From positions 186,001 through 250,000 of the forward strand of contig CAITNS010000043.1 in assembly GCA_903893815.1 (NCBI GenBank): a DNA stretch of 64,000 nt. The letters are read 5' to 3'. A program made the position numbers and the translations under genes. Shown here piece by piece: positions 10,406 to 19,865 of this stretch (positions within the stretch are counted from its first letter, which is position 1; the number at the start of each line of letters is the position of its first letter). The stretch is from an uncultured Bacteroidota bacterium (GTDB lineage Bacteria; Bacteroidota; Bacteroidia; B-17B0; Aurantibacillaceae). The notes beneath the pieces were generated by a model. It was not told the origin of the DNA, made no database searches, and saw nothing but the letters and a program-made list of their open reading frames with translations.

Positions 10406-10996
10406 TTAATGCCTATCCTTTAAAACTTGAATAATATCGTTTAAAGTAAAGTTTTTTGCCTGTAATAATATTAGGTAGTGAAATAGTAAATCAGCCGCTT
10501 CTCCTTTAAACAGCTCGTCATTATTGTCTTTTGCTTCAATTACTACCTCCACAGCTTCTTCTCCAACTTTTTGAGCAATTTTATTAATACCTTTTGCAAA
10601 TAATGAGGCTGTATATGATTTATCAGTTGGGTTATTTTTTCTATCTCTTATAATCGTTTCTAGTTCTATTAAAAAATTAGGAGAGATATTTTTTTCGTTA
10701 AAGCAAGTATCGGAGCCTTTGTGACAAGTTGGTCCAGCAGGAGTGGCTTTTATTAATATGGTATCTTGGTCGCAATCAATTAAAAGTGAATTAACGTCTA
10801 AGAAATTGCCACTCTCTTCTCCTTTGGTCCATAATCTATTTTTGGAGCGTGAGAAAAATGTAACGCGGTTTTCTTGTTGTGTTTTATCAAATGCTTCTTG
10901 GTTCATATAGCCAAGCATTAATACTACGTTAGTAATGTTATCTTGTATAATTACAGGAATTAATCCGTCTGGTGATTTAGTAAAGTCTGGTTTCAT
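10406..10996 (-). CDS. hisIE: Bifunctional phosphoribosyl-AMP cyclohydrolase/phosphoribosyl-ATP pyrophosphatase
   Basis: This catalyses histidine synthesis steps 2 and 3. The HisI half (about 1-105) shows GYMNQEAF, FFSRSKNRLWTKGEESGN, the metal-binding DCDQD, and GPTCHKGSDTCF with its Zn cysteines. The HisE half (about 108-196) shows YTASLFAKGINKIAQKVGEEAVE and EAADLLFHYLILL, typical of the alpha-helical pyrophosphohydrolase. At 196 residues the fusion has normal length. It is the last his gene, 5 bp after hisF. Confidence 0.97.
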   Translation of the reverse strand: MKPDFTKSPDGLIPVIIQDNITNVVLMLGYMNQEAFDKTQQENRVTFFSRSKNRLWTKGEESGNFLDVNSLLIDCDQDTILIKATPAGPTCHKGSDTCFNEKNISPNFLIELETIIRDRKNNPTDKSYTASLFAKGINKIAQKVGEEAVEVVIEAKDNNDELFKGEAADLLFHYLILLQAKNFTLNDIIQVLKDRH

Positions 10997-11001
10997 ATTA
11001 T

Positions 11002-11757
11002 CTATAATCTAATTTCTATTTGGTTTGATTTTAAAAATCTTTTTAATTCTGGTATGGCAATTTCTTTATAATGAAAAACACTTGCTGCTAAAGCCGCATC
11101 TGCTTTTCCATTTTCAAAAATTTCTTTAAAGTGTTGCATAGTGCCTGCTCCACCACTTGCTATTACTGGAACATTTACGGCTTCTGAAATTTGTTTGGTG
11201 ATATCTAATGCAAAGCCATCTTTTGTTCCATCATTATTCATCGACGTTAATAATATTTCTCCGGCACCTAAAGCAACAGCTTGTTTTGCCCAGTCAAGTG
11301 TTTTTAATTCTGTTTTTACTCTACCTCCGTTTAAGTATACATACCAGTCATTATCTTCAAATTTAGTATCGATAGCTAGCACCACACATTGACTTCCAAA
11401 TTGACTGGCTAAATCTTTTATTAATTGAGGATTTTTAACAGCAGAGGTATTAACAGAGATTTTATCTGCACCAGCATTTAATAAAGCAGACACGTCCTCA
11501 ATTGAGCTAATTCCACCACCAACCGTAAATGGAATATTGATATGCTTGGCAATGCGAGTTACTAATTCCGACAATGTTTTTCGTTTTTCGTTAGTGGCTG
11601 TGATGTCTAAAAACACTAATTCATCAGCGCCTTGTTTGGCATATTCGATAGCAAGTTCAACTGGATCTCCAGCATCTCTAATGTTTTCAAAGTTGATGCC
11701 CTTTACTGTCCTTCCGTCTTTGATGTCCAGGCATGGAATTATTCTTTTTGTAATCAT
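11002..11757 (-). CDS. hisF: Imidazole glycerol phosphate synthase cyclase subunit HisF
   Basis: The 251-residue (beta/alpha)8 barrel has [18 protein letters not shown] with catalytic Asp11, [23 protein letters not shown] (second catalytic Asp) and [12 protein letters not shown]. It uses ammonia from HisH to convert PRFAR into IGP and AICAR. It lies 30 bp after a four-helix-bundle gene that separates it from hisA, and 5 bp before hisIE. Confidence 0.97.
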
Positions 11758-11787
11758 TTCTTTGATTTAGGATTTGCGAATGACGAG

Positions 11788-12153
11788 TTACGATTTTTGA
11801 TTTGCATTATTTCGAGCAGTTTTTAATGAAGCAACTATGATCGAAAGAATTTCATTCGCTTCTTTATGAATAACTTCTAATTCATTTTTATGTTCAGGAA
11901 GTAACTCCATAAAAATCTCTAAGAAATACATGGTTTCATCACATTCCTCTTCAACAATTTTTAGTTTATTTATGAAGTCAGGTGTTGATTTTGCTCTAGA
12001 TACCGCTCTATAATTTGCACCCAAAGATGAACTACATCTACTTATTTGATTAACTAATGCAAAGTAAGGTTGCTTATTTGGTGTTTTTTCAATAAATTTT
12101 AATACAGTAATAGCAAATTGTTTTGTTCTTAGTTTCAAGTCTTGTGGTTTCAT
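11788..12153 (-). CDS. Four-helix-bundle protein of the 23S rRNA intervening-sequence (S23) family, first copy in his operon
   Basis: The 121-residue helical protein has the family core ISRCSSSLGANYRAVSRAKS followed by FINKLKIVEEECDETMYFLE, matching the RSA-S-GANYREA / K-x-x-x-E-x-x-E-T-x-Y-W pattern of S23/IVP-like proteins. Family function is unclear; related folds include the Avd proteins of diversity-generating retroelements and ORFs in 23S rRNA insertions. It sits between hisA and hisF with 29 and 30 bp gaps, whereas true his neighbours are 1-5 bp apart. Its neighbouring spacers contain TTCGTAA-type strings in opposite orientation. It is probably an inserted cassette co-transcribed with his. 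Confidence 0.85.
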   Translation of the reverse strand: MKPQDLKLRTKQFAITVLKFIEKTPNKQPYFALVNQISRCSSSLGANYRAVSRAKSTPDFINKLKIVEEECDETMYFLEIFMELLPEHKNELEVIHKEANEILSIIVASLKTARNNANQKS

Positions 12154-12182
12154 AGTTAGAAATTTAATTATAAATCTAAGTT

Positions 12183-12914
12183 CTAAATTCGTAAGTCTTC
12201 AATTGCACTTCGTAATACGTCCATCGTAATTCTACCTTCGTAAATAGCTTTTCCAACAATAGTTGCAGAACAACCTATATTTTTTAATTCAATTAAATCA
12301 CTTAATTGAGAGACGCCACCACTGGCTGTTAAATTTAGTTTAGGAAATTTTGCAATCATGTTTTTATATAAATCAATCGATGGGCCTTGTAATAATCCAT
12401 CTTTCGAAATATCTGTACAGAAAACATTTTCAATTCCTTCGTTCAAATTTTCTTCAATGAAATCATAGATTGAAACATTGGTTGTTTCTAACCAACCACT
12501 TACAGCTATTTTTTCGTCCTTAACATCTGCCCCTAAAAATATTTTTTTTGCGCCATATTTTTTAATCCAAGAAAAAAATAGCGGTTTATTTTTTACTGCC
12601 AAACTCCCAATGGTTGCTAAGTCAGCCCCGTAATTGAAAACTGTTTCTATATCATCCTGTGTTTTAATCCCTCCTCCAAAATCAATTGACAATTTTGTTT
12701 TACTGGCGATACTCTCTAACACTTTATAATTGACTACTTTTCCTAATTTAGCCCCATCTAAATCCACTAAATGTAGTCGAGTAATTCCAATACTTTCAAA
12801 CTCCAAAGCGACTTCTAAAGGATTTTCATTATAAATTGTTTTTTGCGCATAATCGCCTTGTGTTAATCGCACACATTTACCATCTATGATATCAATTGCC
12901 GGAATGATTTCCAT
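12183..12914 (-). CDS. hisA: ProFAR isomerase HisA
   Basis: The 243-residue (beta/alpha)8 barrel isomerises the ProFAR aminoaldose to PRFAR. Motifs: IPAIDIIDGKCVRLTQGDY (catalytic Asp8), IDFGGGI, ATIGSLA, FCTDISKDGLLQG (second Asp) and LTASGGVS. It lies 3 bp after hisH. A four-helix-bundle gene follows 29 bp downstream. Confidence 0.97.
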   Translation of the reverse strand: MEIIPAIDIIDGKCVRLTQGDYAQKTIYNENPLEVALEFESIGITRLHLVDLDGAKLGKVVNYKVLESIASKTKLSIDFGGGIKTQDDIETVFNYGADLATIGSLAVKNKPLFFSWIKKYGAKKIFLGADVKDEKIAVSGWLETTNVSIYDFIEENLNEGIENVFCTDISKDGLLQGPSIDLYKNMIAKFPKLNLTASGGVSQLSDLIELKNIGCSATIVGKAIYEGRITMDVLRSAIEDLRI

Positions 12915-12917
12915 GTC

Positions 12918-13499
12918 TTATATTTTGATAAAGTTTTCTAATAGTTTTTGTCCTGCATCGCTTGATTTTTCAGGGTGAAATTGAACACCATAAAAATTAT
13001 TTTTTTGAAGTGAAGTACTATATTTTATTCCATAGTCTGTTTTAGAAATAGTATGATTGCTTATTTCAGCATAATAACTATGAACTAAATACATATATTC
13101 GTTTTCTTTAATTCCTTCAAATAAATTAGTCTTTAAATCATAGATAGTGTTCCATCCTATTTGAGGGACCTTAATATCACCTGTGAATAATTTAATTTGA
13201 TTGTCAAATATTCCCAAACACTCTGTGTTTCCTTCTTCTGAGGATTTACATAGGAGTTGCATCCCCAAACAAATGCCCAATACTGGTTGTTTTAAATTCA
13301 CAATCACTTCATCTAATTTCTTTTCTTTGAGGTATTGCATTGCTGAACTAGCTTCACCCACGCCTGGAAAGATAATCTTATCGGATGATTTTAAAATGCT
13401 AATATCATCTGTAACGTTGGCATTAACGCCAATCCGCTCTAAAGCAAATAAAACAGATTGCACATTACCCGCATTATATTTTATGATGGATACTTTCAT
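12918..13499 (-). CDS. hisH: Imidazole glycerol phosphate synthase glutaminase subunit HisH
   Basis: The class I glutamine amidotransferase has 193 residues. The nucleophile is Cys77 in GICLGMQLL, the oxyanion region is PGVGEA, and the catalytic His-Glu pair is in VQFHPEKS near 175. It supplies ammonia to HisF. It starts 49 bp after the second four-helix-bundle gene and ends 3 bp before hisA. Confidence 0.97.
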   Translation of the reverse strand: MKVSIIKYNAGNVQSVLFALERIGVNANVTDDISILKSSDKIIFPGVGEASSAMQYLKEKKLDEVIVNLKQPVLGICLGMQLLCKSSEEGNTECLGIFDNQIKLFTGDIKVPQIGWNTIYDLKTNLFEGIKENEYMYLVHSYYAEISNHTISKTDYGIKYSTSLQKNNFYGVQFHPEKSSDAGQKLLENFIKI

Positions 13500-13506
13500 A
13501 GTAAGT

Positions 13507-13966
13507 ATAAGTTGTAAGTTTTAAGAAGAAAGGCTGGGTAAAGTAAATTTAAATTTTGTTTATAGATACTGATTTAGAATATCCATGAATTAAACGTCTA
13601 ACTTCATCTGCTAAATTCTCAAGTTCATTTGCTGTTTTTTCGTTTATGTATTCTAAATCTTTTGAAAGAAGAATATAATATTTTACTTCTTCTAATGAGC
13701 CTTCTGATATATTTAAAAAATTTAATTTATTTGGAGTAGTTTTCTTTTTATAGCCTTCAGCAATATTTGCAGCTATAGATACAGCAGCTCTTCTAACTTG
13801 ATTTGTTAAAGCGTACACTTCTTCTTTTGGATAATTTTTAGTCACTTTGTAAATTGACAGTGCCAATAAATGTGCTTTTTGCCAAACTATTAATCCTTTA
13901 AATGAGGTTGTCTTTTCCATTTTTAATTATATAAATTATTTTTTAAATATACGCCTTACAACTTAT
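13507..13966. repeat. 12-bp perfect inverted repeats bracketing the second four-helix-bundle gene
   Basis: ATAAGTTGTAAG at 13507-13518 and its exact complement CTTACAACTTAT at 13955-13966 enclose the gene at 13549-13920. Further CTTACAAC sequence follows at 13976-13983 and GTAAG at 13501. The whole interval is 460 bp. Confidence 0.8.
13549..13920 (-). CDS. Four-helix-bundle protein of the S23 family, second copy in his operon
   Basis: The 123-residue helical protein has the other common sub-type core: QVRRAAVSIAANIAEGYKKKT, then FLNISEGSLEEVKYYILLSKDL. It differs strongly from the copy at 11788-12153, so this is not a recent tandem duplication. It lies between hisB and hisH with gaps of 56 and 49 bp. 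The gaps carry the perfect 12-bp inverted repeat described at 13507-13966. Biochemical role is unknown; a link to histidine synthesis is not implied by the family. Confidence 0.87.
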   Translation of the reverse strand: MEKTTSFKGLIVWQKAHLLALSIYKVTKNYPKEEVYALTNQVRRAAVSIAANIAEGYKKKTTPNKLNFLNISEGSLEEVKYYILLSKDLEYINEKTANELENLADEVRRLIHGYSKSVSINKI

Positions 13967-13976
13967 TTCTTTCTCC

Positions 13977-15086
13977 TTACAACATACCCTTAGTACTTGG
14001 TAAACTCATATTATTTGCATCTCTTTTTACTGCTATTTTAATAGCTTTAGCAAAAGCTTTAAAAATCGATTCTATTTTATGGTGTTCATTTTGTCCTTCT
14101 ACTTTAATATTTAAATTACATTTAGATGCATCACTAAATGATTTAAAAAAGTGATAAAACATTTCTGTTGGCATATCTCCAATTTTTTCTCTTTTAAATT
14201 CTGCTTGCCATTCAATCCAATTTCTACCTCCAAAATCTAAGGCTACTTGAGCTAAACAATCATCCATTGGTAAGCAAAAACCGTATCGTTCAATACCTCT
14301 TTTATCTCCTAATGCTTTTGCAAAAGCTTCACCTAATGTAATAGCGGTATCCTCAATGGTGTGGTGTTCATCAATATGTAAATCTCCTTTTGCATTGATG
14401 GATAAATCGATGTTACCGTGTTTAGCAATTTGTTCTAACATGTGATCAAAAAAAGCAAGCCCTGTTTTAATTTCTGCTTTGCCGCTACCATCTATATTAA
14501 TTGCGATAGTAATATCTGTTTCTTTTGTAGTTCTAGTGTGTGTAATATTTCTTTCAGGGAGTTTAAGGTAATTATAAATTTCCTCCCACGTCTCCACTAT
14601 CTTGTCAATCTCATTTTCAAATCCTGTTTCTTTATCATAGTTTTTGATGAAGATGGATTTGCTTCCTAAATTCTTAGCTAAATTAACATCAGTTAATCTA
14701 TCGCCAATAACAAACGAATTTGCTAAATCATAGTCGCCATTTACATATTTGGTTAGCATACCCGTGTTTGGCTTACGCGTTGGTTGATTATCTTTTTCAA
14801 ATGTTCTATCGATACATTGGTCTTCAAATGTTATGCCTTCATTCGCTAAAGTATCAACCATTAAATTATGAACTGGCCAAAATGTATTTTCAGGAAACGA
14901 ATCAGTTCCTAAGCCGTCTTGGTTTGTTACCATTACTAATTCATAATCTAATTCTCGAACTATTTTTCCTAACCAAGTAATAACGCCAGGTAAAAATTTA
15001 AATTTCTCAAAACTATCAATTTGAAAATCGGTGGGTGGTTCCCAAATCAAGGTCCCATCTCTATCAATAAATAATACTTTTTGCAT
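13977..15086 (-). CDS. hisB: Bifunctional histidinol-phosphatase/imidazoleglycerol-phosphate dehydratase
   Basis: This is a 369-residue fusion. The N-terminal HAD phosphatase (about 1-165) starts [13 protein letters not shown] (nucleophile Asp, general acid Asp) with VTNQDGLG and [17 protein letters not shown]. The C-terminal dehydratase (about 180-369) has [33 protein letters not shown] and [19 protein letters not shown], which hold the manganese-binding His clusters. It catalyses steps 6 and 8. It starts 1 bp after hisC. Confidence 0.97.
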
Positions 15087-15087
15087 G

Positions 15088-16140
15088 TTACTTATATTGT
15101 TTTAATGTGTCTATTAACTGTTTGTTTTCTTTTTCTGTTCCAACGCTTATGCGAATTCTATTTTCACAATTTAATAAGCTGGAACGGTTGCTGATTAAAA
15201 TAGTTTTTTTTAATAGATAGTTACAAATATCACTCGCGTTAGATACTTCAATTAAAAAATAATTTGCATCGCTTTCAAGAATGTTTTTCACAAAGGGCAA
15301 TTGTTGCAATTCGTTTTCTAAAACTATTTTTTGTTTTAAAATGCTATCTACTAATGTATCTTTTATTGCGGATTTATTCAAGGCTTTTAATATCAATTCT
15401 TGAGAGTTGGAGTTAATATTAAAAGGCGGACGAACTTTATTTAGAATTTCAATAATGGAAGGATTCCCGTAAGCGACTCCAACACGTAAAGCTGCTAATC
15501 CCCATGCTTTTGAAAAGGTTTGTAAAACCAAAATATTTTCAAATTCAGTAATTAAAGATAGGGCAGAGGCTTTTTCAGAGAAATCAATATAAGCTTCATC
15601 AACCACAACAATACCATTAAAATTTAAAGCAATTGTTTTTAATTGCTCTATCGAGATACTAGTGCCTGTTGGATTATTTGGAGTGCAAATAAAAACGAGT
15701 TTCGTTCTTAAGTTCGTAGTTTTTAAAATGACGTGTTCATCAAACAAAAAGCTTTCTTTTTTTAATGGTGCATTTAAAACTTCTACATTATTTAATTGGG
15801 CATATACTTTAAACATCCCAAAAGTTGGTTCGCAAATCAAGATATTATCTTGCTTAGGTTCACAAAAGCAACGAATCAGTATATCAATTAATTCATCGCT
15901 ACCATTACCAATAGCCACTTGATTTAAGTTTACTTTTTTATATGTTGCAATTGCTTGTTTTACTTTGCTTTGAGAAGAACAAGGGTAACGCTCATAACCT
16001 AAACCTATTGGCGAACCAAAATTATTTTCACAGTTATCTAAAAAAACAGCTTCACTATTATCCAAATAATCATCTCTCCAAACTTTGTAAGATTGAAGCG
16101 ATTTTATATTTTCTCTTGTTATAGCATCTAAATTGAACAT
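15088..16140 (-). CDS. hisC: Histidinol-phosphate aminotransferase
   Basis: The PLP-dependent fold-type I aminotransferase has 350 residues. Motifs: [36 protein letters not shown], and [16 protein letters not shown], which contains the Schiff-base Lys. It converts imidazole acetol-phosphate and glutamate to histidinol-phosphate. It follows hisD by 3 bp. Confidence 0.96.
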
Positions 16141-16143
16141 AAT

Positions 16144-17427
16144 TTATAAATTACTTTTTAATCTTAATGTTACTGCATTTTTGTGAGCTTGTAATCCTTC
16201 TGCTTCAGCCATCAATTCAATAGCTGGGCCGATAGTGTTTATACCTTCTTTACTTAATTTTTGGTAGGTAATTTTTTTCACGAAACTATCTAAACTTACT
16301 CCACTGTATGCTTTTGCGTATCCGTTGGTTGGCAAGGTATGATTAGTTCCCGAAGCATAATCGCCTGCACTTTCACAGGAATAATTTCCTAAAAATACTG
16401 AACCGGCATTTACAACTTGTTCTGCTAATTGTTCATCATTTTCACAAGCAATAATTAAATGCTCTGGGGCATATTCGTTTAATAAGTCAATAGCTTCTGT
16501 ATTTGTTTTTACTAAAATTGCCTTGCTGTTTTCAAGTGCTTTAGTTGCAAATTCTTTTCTTGGCAAAAGCGCTAATTGTTTTTTTAATTCAGTTTGAATG
16601 TTTTGGATTGCATCTTCATTGGTAGAAACTAAAATAACTTGAGAATCTGAACCATGCTCTGCCTGAGATAACAAATCTGCTGCAACAAATTCAGGAACAC
16701 ATGTATCATCAACTAACACGGCTACCTCTGATGGACCAGCTGGCATATCAATAGCCACGCCTTGTTTATTAACTAATTGTTTAGCGCAGGTTACATATTG
16801 ATTTCCTGGACCAAATATTTTATAAACTTGCGGAATGATTTCGGTACCATAAGTCATTCCTCCAATAGCTTGTACACCACCAACTTTAAAAACTTTAGTA
16901 ATTCCAATTAATTGTGCTGTATATAAAATGGCAGGATTAATATTTCCATTAGTATCTGGCGGAGTACACAAAATAATTTCTTCGCAGCCAGCTAACTTTG
17001 CAGGCACTCCTAACATTAAAATAGTTGAGAACAAGGGCGCGGTGCCACCAGGAATATACAATCCTACTTTTTGAATAGCGATGGATTTTCTCCAGCATTT
17101 CACGCCAGGCATCGTTTCAATAATTTTCACTTCTTCTTTTTGGGCAGAGTGAAATGTTTCAATATTTTTTTTAGCTAATTGAATGGCTTGTTTTAATTCT
17201 TTAGAAATCTGTTTCTCAGCTTCTATAAATTCTGAATCACTTACTAGGACATTTGAAATAGTTACTTTATCAAACTGTAAAGTGTACTTATTGACTGCTG
17301 ATTGCCTATTGGTTTTAATATCTGACAATACAGATTGTACAGTAGCTTCTAATGAAGTTGTATCAATTGCTGGACGTTTCAGTATGTCTTTCCAGATTTC
17401 TTTATTTGGATATTTAATTAGTTCCAT
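16144..17427 (-). CDS. hisD: Histidinol dehydrogenase
   Basis: The 427-residue Zn enzyme oxidises L-histidinol to histidine with two NAD+. Typical strings are YIPGGTAPLFSTILM, VGGVQAIGGMTYGTE, IFGPGNQYVTCAKQ, DMPAGPSEVAVL, LLSQAEHGSDSQ (Zn ligands) and GTNHTLPT. The length is usual. The 54-bp gap to hisG holds a repeat-like element (17446-17476) and is the largest gap between adjacent his genes apart from the four-helix-bundle insertions. Confidence 0.97.
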   Translation of the reverse strand: MELIKYPNKEIWKDILKRPAIDTTSLEATVQSVLSDIKTNRQSAVNKYTLQFDKVTISNVLVSDSEFIEAEKQISKELKQAIQLAKKNIETFHSAQKEEVKIIETMPGVKCWRKSIAIQKVGLYIPGGTAPLFSTILMLGVPAKLAGCEEIILCTPPDTNGNINPAILYTAQLIGITKVFKVGGVQAIGGMTYGTEIIPQVYKIFGPGNQYVTCAKQLVNKQGVAIDMPAGPSEVAVLVDDTCVPEFVAADLLSQAEHGSDSQVILVSTNEDAIQNIQTELKKQLALLPRKEFATKALENSKAILVKTNTEAIDLLNEYAPEHLIIACENDEQLAEQVVNAGSVFLGNYSCESAGDYASGTNHTLPTNGYAKAYSGVSLDSFVKKITYQKLSKEGINTIGPAIELMAEAEGLQAHKNAVTLRLKSNL

Positions 17428-17481: not shown

Positions 17482-18342
17482 TTAAAGTATCATTTTTTCA
17501 ATTGGTACAACTAATATTCCTTGTGCACCTTCTGCTTTCAATTTTTCAATAATTTCCCAAAACTGATTTTCTTCAACTACAGAGTGAACAGAACTCCAGC
17601 CTTTGTTTGCTAGTGGTAAAATAGTTGGGCTTTTCATACCTGGCAATATTTTGCAGATAGCTTCTAATTTACTGTTTGGAGCGTTTAATAAAATGTATTT
17701 AGTGTTTTTAGCTTTTCTAACAGCATTCATTCTAAACAACAGCTTATCTAAAATGTTTTGTTGTTCTTTTCCTAGTTTTTTGTTAGCCACTAAAACCGCT
17801 TCAGATTTTAAAATGATTTCTACTTCTTTTAGTCCATTAGTAAATAATGTGCTTCCAGAACTCACTAAGTCACAAATTGCATCTGCTAATCCAATGCTAG
17901 GGGCAATTTCAACCGACCCACTTATTTCGTGAATCTCTGCTTTTATTTTTTGAGATTTTAAATATTTAGACAAAATTGTAGAGTAAGTAGTAGCAATACG
18001 CTTACCATTTAAATCTTTAATGGATTTATAATTTTGTTCTTTCGGTATAGCTAAAGATAAACGACATTTCCCAAATCCTAGTTTGTCAACTACTTTTAGG
18101 TTTTTGTTTTTTTCTAGTAATACGTTTTCGCCAACAATGCCGATATCAGCAACACCATCTTCTACATATTGCGGAATATCATCATCTCTTAAAAAGAAAA
18201 CTTCAATTGGGAAATTAGAAGCTTCTGTTTTTAACTTATTTAATCCGTTATCGATATCGATCCCGCATTCTTTTAAAAGTTTCAGAGAGTTTTCGCTTAA
18301 GCGTCCTGATTTTTGAATGGCTATTTTTATTTTTTTTTGCAT
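17482..18342 (-). CDS. hisG: ATP phosphoribosyltransferase, long form
   Basis: The 286-residue protein catalyses the first, committed step from ATP and PRPP. It starts IKIAIQKSGRLSENSLKLLKEC, with GIVGENVL and DLVSSGSTLFTNGL in the catalytic domains and a C-terminal ACT-like regulatory domain (about 210-286, SPTILPLANKGWSSVHSVV...GILVVPIEKM). It is therefore the HisZ-independent, histidine-inhibited long form. It is the first structural gene after the leader and terminator at 18371-18506. Confidence 0.97.
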   Translation of the reverse strand: MQKKIKIAIQKSGRLSENSLKLLKECGIDIDNGLNKLKTEASNFPIEVFFLRDDDIPQYVEDGVADIGIVGENVLLEKNKNLKVVDKLGFGKCRLSLAIPKEQNYKSIKDLNGKRIATTYSTILSKYLKSQKIKAEIHEISGSVEIAPSIGLADAICDLVSSGSTLFTNGLKEVEIILKSEAVLVANKKLGKEQQNILDKLLFRMNAVRKAKNTKYILLNAPNSKLEAICKILPGMKSPTILPLANKGWSSVHSVVEENQFWEIIEKLKAEGAQGILVVPIEKMIL

Positions 18343-18370: not shown

Positions 18371-18404
18371 AAAATAAAAAAGGCTTACCAATTGGTAAGC
18401 CTTT
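18371..18404 (-). terminator. his operon attenuator terminator
   Basis: A 26-bp perfect palindrome (18379-18404, arms AAAGGCTTACCAA / TTGGTAAGCCTTT) is followed on the minus strand by TTTTTATTTT. It lies between the leader peptide and hisG, inside the operon's own leader, so it is an attenuator rather than an end-of-operon terminator. The 5' arm contains CTTACC, complementary to GGTAAG in the leader reading frame (18454-18459). Confidence 0.88.
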
Positions 18405-18428
18405 AGATAATGATAGTATTTATATAAA

Positions 18429-18506
18429 TTACAAAATAGCATCAGCACCTACACTTACCTGTGCAGCATAAAAATGATGATGATGTATTTGATTAAAATT
18501 TTTCAT
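18429..18506 (-). CDS. hisL: Histidine leader peptide (25 residues, four consecutive His)
   Basis: The short frame ATG (18504-18506) to TAA (18429-18431) begins MKNFNQIHHHHFYAAQ. Four successive CAT codons (codons 8-11) lie 18-27 nt before GGTAAG (codons 16-18), which can pair with the 5' arm of the downstream terminator. This is the architecture of amino-acid leader attenuation: a ribosome stalled at the His codons leaves GGTAAG free to sequester CTTACC and prevent termination. A promoter with consensus elements lies immediately upstream. Function is inferred from sequence only. Confidence 0.85.
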   Translation of the reverse strand: MKNFNQIHHHHFYAAQVSVGADAIL

Positions 18507-18516
18507 TTTGTTCGGA

Positions 18517-18545
18517 CAAATGTAATTTAAAAAATTTGAAACAAA
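18517..18545 (-). promoter_or_regulatory. his operon promoter
   Basis: On the minus strand TTTG (18542-18545), 17 bp, then TACATTTG (18517-18524) matches the Bacteroidota -33/-7 consensus. Transcription would start near 18510, a few nucleotides before the leader ATG at 18506. Confidence 0.75.
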
Positions 18546-18599
18546 CAACTATTTTTTAAATTATTTTAAGTTTTCTTTATTTTACTAATGTTTAGAGGT

Positions 18600-19865
18600 T
18601 TACAATAATCTATTTAAAATTTCACCAAATCTATAAATATCTTCGAATGAATTATACATTGGAACAGGTGCACAACGAATTACATTTGGCTCTCTCCAAT
18701 CTGGTATCACGCCATTTTCAATTAATTTGTTGTATAATGCTTTTCCTTGTCCATGAGCTACAATACTAATTTGGCAACCTCTGTTTGCTTTAGGGGTAAT
18801 GATTTCTAAGCAATTATTTTTTTGTTTATTGATCTCTCCAACCAAAAATTCTAAATACTCCGTTAACACTTTACTTTTTTCGTTCAGCTTATCCATACCC
18901 ACTTCATCAAATATATCTAAAGATGCTTTGTAGGCTGCCATAGATAAAATTGGCGCATTACTTAATTGCCATCGTTCAACCGATTGAATAGGAACAAATT
19001 CTCTATCCATTTTAAAACGGGTTGCTTTATCATGTCCCCACCATCCTGCAAATAAAGGCATGTCGGTATTTTTATGATGTTGCTCGTGAACAAATGCGCC
19101 TGCCACACAACCAGGACCACCATTTAAATATTTGTAAGAACACCAGGCCGCAAAGTCAACATTCCAATCATGTAAGTGTAATTTCAAATTCCCAGCACCG
19201 TGAGCTAAATCAAAGCCAACAATAGCCCCAACTTTATGGCCTGCTTCCACAATTGCTTTCATGTCGAACACTTGTCCGCTAAAATAATTAACGCCGCCAA
19301 TCATAATTAAAGCTAATGAATCTTTATTATCTTCAATAGCTTTATAAATATCTTCATGACGAACTTCGTATTCTCCTTCGCGCGGCGCAATTTCAATTAG
19401 CGCATCATCAATACTAAATCCGTGAAATTTAACTTGCGATTGTAAAGCGTATTGATCACTTGGAAATGCTTTTGCTTCACATAAAATTTTGTAACGTTGT
19501 TTTGTTGGGCGGTAAAACGACACCATTAGTAAATGTAAGTTTACCGTAAGCTGATTCATCACAACAACTTCAGATGGTAAGGCACCAACTATTTTAGCGG
19601 TTTTATCCGTTAAAATCTCGTGATAGCTTAACCATGGATTTTTGGCTAAAAAGTGTCCTTCCACACCATAAGTAGCCCAATCGTTAAGTTCTTGTTGTAA
19701 ATAATCTTTGGTGGTTTTTGGTTGTAAACCTAATGAGTTACCAGTAAAATAAACCATATCATGCCCTTCGTGTTGAGGGATATGAAATTTATTTCTATAT
19801 GAACGCAATGAATCTTGAGAATCTAGTTGTTTAGCAAATTCGAGGCTATTAGTAAAATTTGTCAT
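18600..19865 (-). CDS. kynU: Kynureninase
   Basis: The 421-residue PLP enzyme cleaves kynurenine to anthranilate and alanine, or 3-hydroxykynurenine to 3-hydroxyanthranilate. Motifs: YFTGNSLGLQPK near the N-terminus, VVMNQLTVNLHLL, VGFDLAHGAGN, and AAWCSYKYLNGGPG with the PLP-binding Lys, then AGWWGH. The length is standard. No other kynurenine-pathway gene is nearby. It stands alone, upstream of the his promoter on the same strand and divergent from the radical SAM gene at 19928. Confidence 0.95.
   Translation of the reverse strand: MTNFTNSLEFAKQLDSQDSLRSYRNKFHIPQHEGHDMVYFTGNSLGLQPKTTKDYLQQELNDWATYGVEGHFLAKNPWLSYHEILTDKTAKIVGALPSEVVVMNQLTVNLHLLMVSFYRPTKQRYKILCEAKAFPSDQYALQSQVKFHGFSIDDALIEIAPREGEYEVRHEDIYKAIEDNKDSLALIMIGGVNYFSGQVFDMKAIVEAGHKVGAIVGFDLAHGAGNLKLHLHDWNVDFAAWCSYKYLNGGPGCVAGAFVHEQHHKNTDMPLFAGWWGHDKATRFKMDREFVPIQSVERWQLSNAPILSMAAYKASLDIFDEVGMDKLNEKSKVLTEYLEFLVGEINKQKNNCLEIITPKANRGCQISIVAHGQGKALYNKLIENGVIPDWREPNVIRCAPVPMYNSFEDIYRFGEILNRLL

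Follow-up and report, generated by a model that had tools for sequence, protein, structure and literature searches.

How is the histidine operon in this stretch of Bacteroidota DNA controlled? The window, as we call the whole 64,000-nucleotide stretch analysed, belongs to a 3.69-Mb genome in 86 contigs, and its closest named records are uncultured Bacteroidetes bacteria, followed by Chitinophaga and its relatives. On its minus strand lies a complete hisGDCB-HA-F-IE operon, which begins with hisG (17482..18342; TIGR00070, 206 bits, cut-off 75.75) and continues with hisD, hisC and hisB (13977..17427; TIGR00069, TIGR01141 and NF003937) and with hisH, hisA, hisF and hisIE (10406..13499). Two genes of the four-helix-bundle family TIGR02436 are interspersed, one between hisB and hisH (13549-13920, minus strand) and one between hisA and hisF (11788-12153, minus strand). 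Upstream, a kynureninase gene (18600-19865) on the same strand ends 93 nt before a short His-rich leader ORF. The region from this ORF to hisG very likely constitutes a ribosome-mediated transcription attenuator for histidine. This reading, which depends in part on modelling, draws directly on the anatomy of the element, its conservation, the coordinated change of two of its segments (termed B and D below) and the dependence of its modelled fold on the position of the ribosome.

All features of the attenuator lie on the minus strand of the window, a point that the earlier note left unsaid. Its putative promoter comprises a -33 element, TTGTTTG (18542..18548), recognised from the sequence and from a pattern in the leaders of relatives, and a -7 element, TACATTTG (18517..18524), which fits TAnnTTTG, given as the -7 box consensus of Bacteroidota in a transcriptome study (PMC9723704). 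The earlier note had called this a consensus promoter; a promoter-like sequence is indeed present, but it is of the Bacteroidota TAnnTTTG type and not the sigma-70 consensus, and a sigma-70 scan of the window did not pick it up. Of 205 leaders, 136 have TAnnTTTG no more than 45 nt from their start (3% in shuffles), with a median distance of 10 nt to the start codon, and 115 of these 136 also carry TTG 17-23 nt further up. The histidine leader peptide ORF (18429..18506) comprises 25 codons, MKNFNQIHHHHFYAAQVSVGADAIL, and its codons 8-11 are four consecutive CAT codons, CATCATCATCAT (18474..18485), the putative regulatory His codons, just as first described. A comparable run, with at least four His among eight codons of a short ORF, arose in none of 400 dinucleotide shuffles of the window's upstream region. 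Between the leader ORF and hisG lies an intrinsic terminator, and the palindrome noted earlier is confirmed as perfect over 26 nt, AAAGGCTTACC-AATT-GGTAAGCCTTT (18404-18379), with an 11-bp stem and an energy of -15.8 kcal/mol, followed by the U tract TTTATTTT (18371..18378). We refer to its 5' arm, AAAGGCTTACC (18394..18404), which lies within the consensus terminator of 43 relatives, as segment D and to its 3' arm, GGTAAGCCTTT (18379..18389), as D'. The terminator sequence occurs only once in the genome, even with up to three mismatches allowed.

The same arrangement recurs far beyond the window. We surveyed 226 hisG upstream regions from the window's family, from the phylum and from named genomes; the genome sources overlap and near-duplicates are present, so the counts are not fully independent. 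A His-rich ORF precedes hisG in 206 of these regions and is absent from 20 of the 226, and 184 (81%) contain at least four His in eight codons, compared with 0.27% of dinucleotide shuffles. Both CAT and CAC are used in 139 of the 206 leaders, and this interchange indicates that the amino acid histidine is kept, not a triplet repeat. The C-terminus of the leader peptide varies in sequence and length, while RNA segment B is retained at a tight distance from the His codons (median 15 nt, interquartile range 11-17). Our initial terminator detector recorded 154 leaders with a terminator, a lower bound because it missed stems running into the U tract; a second detector found 10 more, which brings the leaders with an intrinsic terminator and U tract to 164 of 206, the window's among them. 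RNAalifold, applied to 43 leaders, recovered the terminator as the sole structure, because the alternative helices are incompatible with it and leader lengths vary. The comparison with relatives that the earlier note had called for found the His codons and both complementary segments kept, and not the loss that it had named as the contrary outcome. Judged from sequence, His-leader attenuation appears to be how histidine synthesis is usually controlled in nearly the whole phylum Bacteroidota. Separately, some genomes of the window's own family (L045-L048) combine a leader of the CGTYTGAG class with a more divergent HisG, at 64-67% identity; operon and attenuator may have been replaced there as a unit by horizontal transfer.

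Segment B (GGTAAGT, 18453..18459) would provide the 5' strand of the antiterminator from inside the leader ORF, its GGTAAG (18459-18454) falling on codons 16-18. In the window, GGTAAG:CTTACC is the best duplex of the leader with the terminator 5' arm (-10.9 kcal/mol, p=0.05), and among the 154 sequences in which a terminator was detected, 122 have a B:D duplex that beats shuffles (p≤0.05). The terminators fall into five classes, in which the leader segment and the terminator arm are GGTARGC and GGCTTACC, CTCAAGCG and CGTTTGAG, GGCGCCGG and CCGGCGC, GGCAGG and CTTGCC, and CAGGTAG and CCTACCTG, respectively. When leader segments and arms were crossed between classes, each of the five classes of arm formed its strongest pairing with the leader segment of its own class; the one exception involved the related classes GGCTTACC and CTTGCC. 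The antiterminator would compete for the terminator 5' arm, and the pairing of GGTAAG with CTTACC put forward earlier is well supported, both partners having been swapped jointly in other lineages. Within the GGCTTACC class, B:D is 99.3% paired in nearly invariant columns with zero two-sided changes, and the evidence for covariation therefore comes only from differences between classes; the covariation check suggested for these two segments accordingly yields coordinated, compensating change between classes but none on both sides inside this class. We set aside a ranking in which each leader was compared for pairing with its own D arm and with those of the other classes (57 of 149), as it is confounded by the long CTTGCC arms.

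Further segments make the fold more elaborate than the simple two-state one that had been supposed. Segment C (18432..18449) is predicted to pair either with the His-codon segment A (18476..18491), in a protector, or with segment C2 (18405..18423), in the antiterminator, and with two alternative partners for C the fold is not a simple two-state switch. The A:C duplex reaches -11.6 kcal/mol in the window (p=0.03 versus shuffles) and beats dinucleotide shuffles (p≤0.05) in 68 of 153 sequences, with a mean of -11.1 versus -7.2 kcal/mol. In many relatives, a segment C located just after B pairs with A; in many, B pairs with a CTTACC copy that lies between it and the His codons and encodes C-termini of the form ..LPxR or ..LPxG. 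In place of such a copy, the window's fold contains a small hairpin sequestering B, in which segment B' (CTGCAC, 18461..18466) pairs with GTGTAG (18449-18454). In the window's genus, the antiterminator is lengthened by C2: the C:C2 hairpin places B beside D, so that the whole antiterminator reaches -20.5 kcal/mol (truncated MFE), and it shows two-sided change at 3 of 21 consensus pairs (six relatives). C:C2 may also explain why the leader continues for seven codons past GGTAAG.

The response of these alternatives to translation was modelled by folding the leader up to, and without, the terminator 3' arm, with the ribosome footprint kept single-stranded. Among 154 leaders, the median probability of B:D pairing is 0.16 with no ribosome, 0.95 with the first His codon in the A site, 0.92 with the last His codon and 0.00 with the stop codon, and these medians are stable to other temperatures and footprint sizes. 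On a similar measure, the Escherichia coli K-12 hisL control gives 0.09 with no ribosome, 0.76-0.78 on the His codons and 0.15 at the stop codon; the claim that the element follows the logic of the enterobacterial his leader is thus borne out in silico. In the window itself, the probability is 0.90 both without a ribosome and on every His codon, two states that the model does not separate, 0.00 with codons 15-23 in the A site, and anywhere from 0.07 to 0.82 at the stop codon, depending on the model settings. GGTAAG is covered in the window while codons ~15-24 are read, but 22 nt separate it from UAA, which places it upstream of the trailing edge of a ribosome at the stop codon and hence uncovered. 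The idea that a ribosome reaching the stop would cover GGTAAG therefore fails here, although it would hold in most relatives, where the stop lies ~2 nt from segment B. The model predicts instead that what keeps the window's operon off is a ribosome in transit across B and C. It further predicts that untranslated RNA of the window antiterminates, unlike that of most relatives, in which termination without a ribosome (superattenuation) is favoured (median 0.16, compared with 0.90 in the window); this may be either a peculiarity of the genus or a shortcoming of the model. Once the 3' arm is included, equilibrium folding lets the terminator win in all states in both the window and E. coli hisL and does not discriminate between these states. 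Since the E. coli terminator likewise wins, this result is not decisive against attenuation, and antitermination must then be kinetic.

In the mechanism we propose, RNA polymerase would start a short distance before the leader ORF. With ample charged tRNA-His, the ribosome would traverse the four CAT codons and cover B (codons ~15-24); B and C would afterwards refold with the leader, D would pair with D', and transcription would stop before hisG. Under histidine shortage, the ribosome would stall at codons 8-11, blocking A and leaving B and C free. Free B (GGTAAGT) could then pair with D (GGCTTACC), helped in the window's genus by C:C2, and if B:D held for long enough, the polymerase would pass the U tract into hisGDCB-HA-F-IE. 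We infer that in vivo the promoter is used, the leader is translated, the ribosome stalls and antitermination is kinetic.

Could the terminator merely end transcription of the upstream kynureninase gene, the His run being due to chance or to an unrelated short ORF? The gene has the orientation and proximity that this would demand, as it lies on the same strand and ends close to the leader, but a promoter-like sequence and the leader intervene between gene and terminator. Moreover, kynureninase adjoins the hisG leader in few relatives only, and relatives without a nearby kynureninase keep leader and terminator at hisG, with which the leader stays. Taken with a His run far beyond chance and the joint change of B and D, this renders the explanation highly unlikely. 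We find it scarcely credible that the leader is foremost a functional His-rich small protein, for instance a metal-binding one, with regulation secondary: although a His-rich peptide is conserved phylum-wide, the His codons alone are kept in it, and segment B is retained as RNA while the encoded C-terminus varies.

A different objection concerns the output, as leader translation might act on hisG through Rho-dependent termination or through the initiation of translation, leaving the hairpin an accessory role. Indeed, in at least two other Bacteroidota families the His leaders at hisG lack an intrinsic terminator; against this stand the terminator and U tract found in the large majority of leaders, including the window's, and the complementarity of the terminator to a leader segment, and we consider such an output very improbable here. 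For the window, we therefore retain ribosome-mediated attenuation at the intrinsic terminator as the preferred reading.

The terminator-less variant elsewhere in the phylum is the more open matter. An intrinsic terminator was not found in 42 of the 206 His leaders, even with the second detector. It is missing from all 21 sampled members of one family, f24 (L057-L062, L067, L069, L072, L075, L080, L166, L168, L169, L171, L173, L174, L176, L186, L192 and L210), in which the 70 nt after the leader consist of 25% C and 7% G. Conserved hairpins lie in or next to the leader of this family, GATGTCC..GGACATC in the His run and, in one subgroup, GYAGC..GCTRC after the leader. Rho needs a C-rich, G-poor unstructured stretch, and Rho-dependent his attenuation is therefore a reasonable guess for f24, whose base composition suggests a candidate case of Rho-dependent histidine control. 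The seven sampled members of a second family, f2 (L187, L195, L197, L205, L207, L230 and L240), have no terminator before hisG and keep the leader hairpin, which involves the His codons and changes from CATCGCC/GGCGATA to CACCAC/GTGGTG; their output could be translational or Rho-dependent. We tentatively entertain, with some doubt, the broader idea that the His leader is a phylum-wide but sequence-plastic device in which the sensor (the His codons) is kept and the output exchanged, the paired segments being swapped and the terminator gone in f24 and f2, with the C-rich, G-poor stretch of f24 suggesting Rho in its place.

The attenuation mechanism proposed for the window is that of the enterobacterial his leader. 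As in hisL (Rfam RF00514), hisG is preceded by a short ORF with consecutive His codons and by a terminator, a mutually exclusive antiterminator would be freed by a ribosome stalled on the His codons, and the response in the same folding model is alike. In contrast to hisL, the window has four His codons instead of seven, its antiterminator strand lies inside the leader ORF, with the stop codon far downstream of that strand in the genus, and its mRNA is near-leaderless and preceded by a Bacteroidota promoter. Nor is there a relation at the level of Rfam: the RF00514 covariance model matched neither the window nor 16 relatives at gathering score, and no Rfam family matched the leader element at gathering or relaxed thresholds. 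A weak Phe_leader hit (31 bits) is under its cut-off of 55, and Bacteroid-trp (RF01692) reaches 22.6 bits where the cut-off is 49, the window's leader having no Trp codon. Bacteroid-trp, listed as cis-regulatory in PMC2864571, resembles the window's element as a leader-peptide RNA of the same phylum and differs from it in its amino acid, Trp in place of His. No RF01692 element was found in the window's genome, whose only trpE-like gene, considered for a sister trp attenuator, is a 377-aa ORF without an upstream Trp leader and is probably of the pabB type.

Teaching usually presents leader-peptide attenuation as a device of Proteobacteria. In 2004, Vitreschak and colleagues reportedly predicted amino-acid leader-peptide attenuators by comparative analysis, and their abstract is said to include Bacteroidetes/Chlorobi, as the first extension of such attenuators to this group. 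A 2010 survey described attenuation as known only from Proteobacteria and Actinobacteria, with Firmicutes then added (PMC2965389). For Flavobacterium psychrophilum, the accessible part of a transcriptome study describes a transcribed structured 5' region before hisG, which is conserved in Flavobacteriaceae and has no Rfam hit, as well as strong indications that amino-acid operons are attenuated through leader peptides; for hisG itself, that part gives no leader peptide, antiterminator or mechanism (PMC9723704). This hisG element is very probably of the same kind as the window's. Attenuation of his operons is thus a known mechanism, already suspected in Flavobacteriaceae; what is new here, within the literature searched, is the count across the phylum, the finding that both antiterminator strands are exchanged together, and C:C2 as an additional element. 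A Bacteroidota his attenuator, for which there is no Rfam family, would make it possible to annotate how his genes are regulated in many genomes, and its variants offer a natural series for attenuator evolution, including lineages with the sensor kept and the terminator lost. Elsewhere in the window, a Cobalamin riboswitch (RF00174; 1277-1409, minus strand; 61.4 bits) is the sole Rfam match at gathering score.
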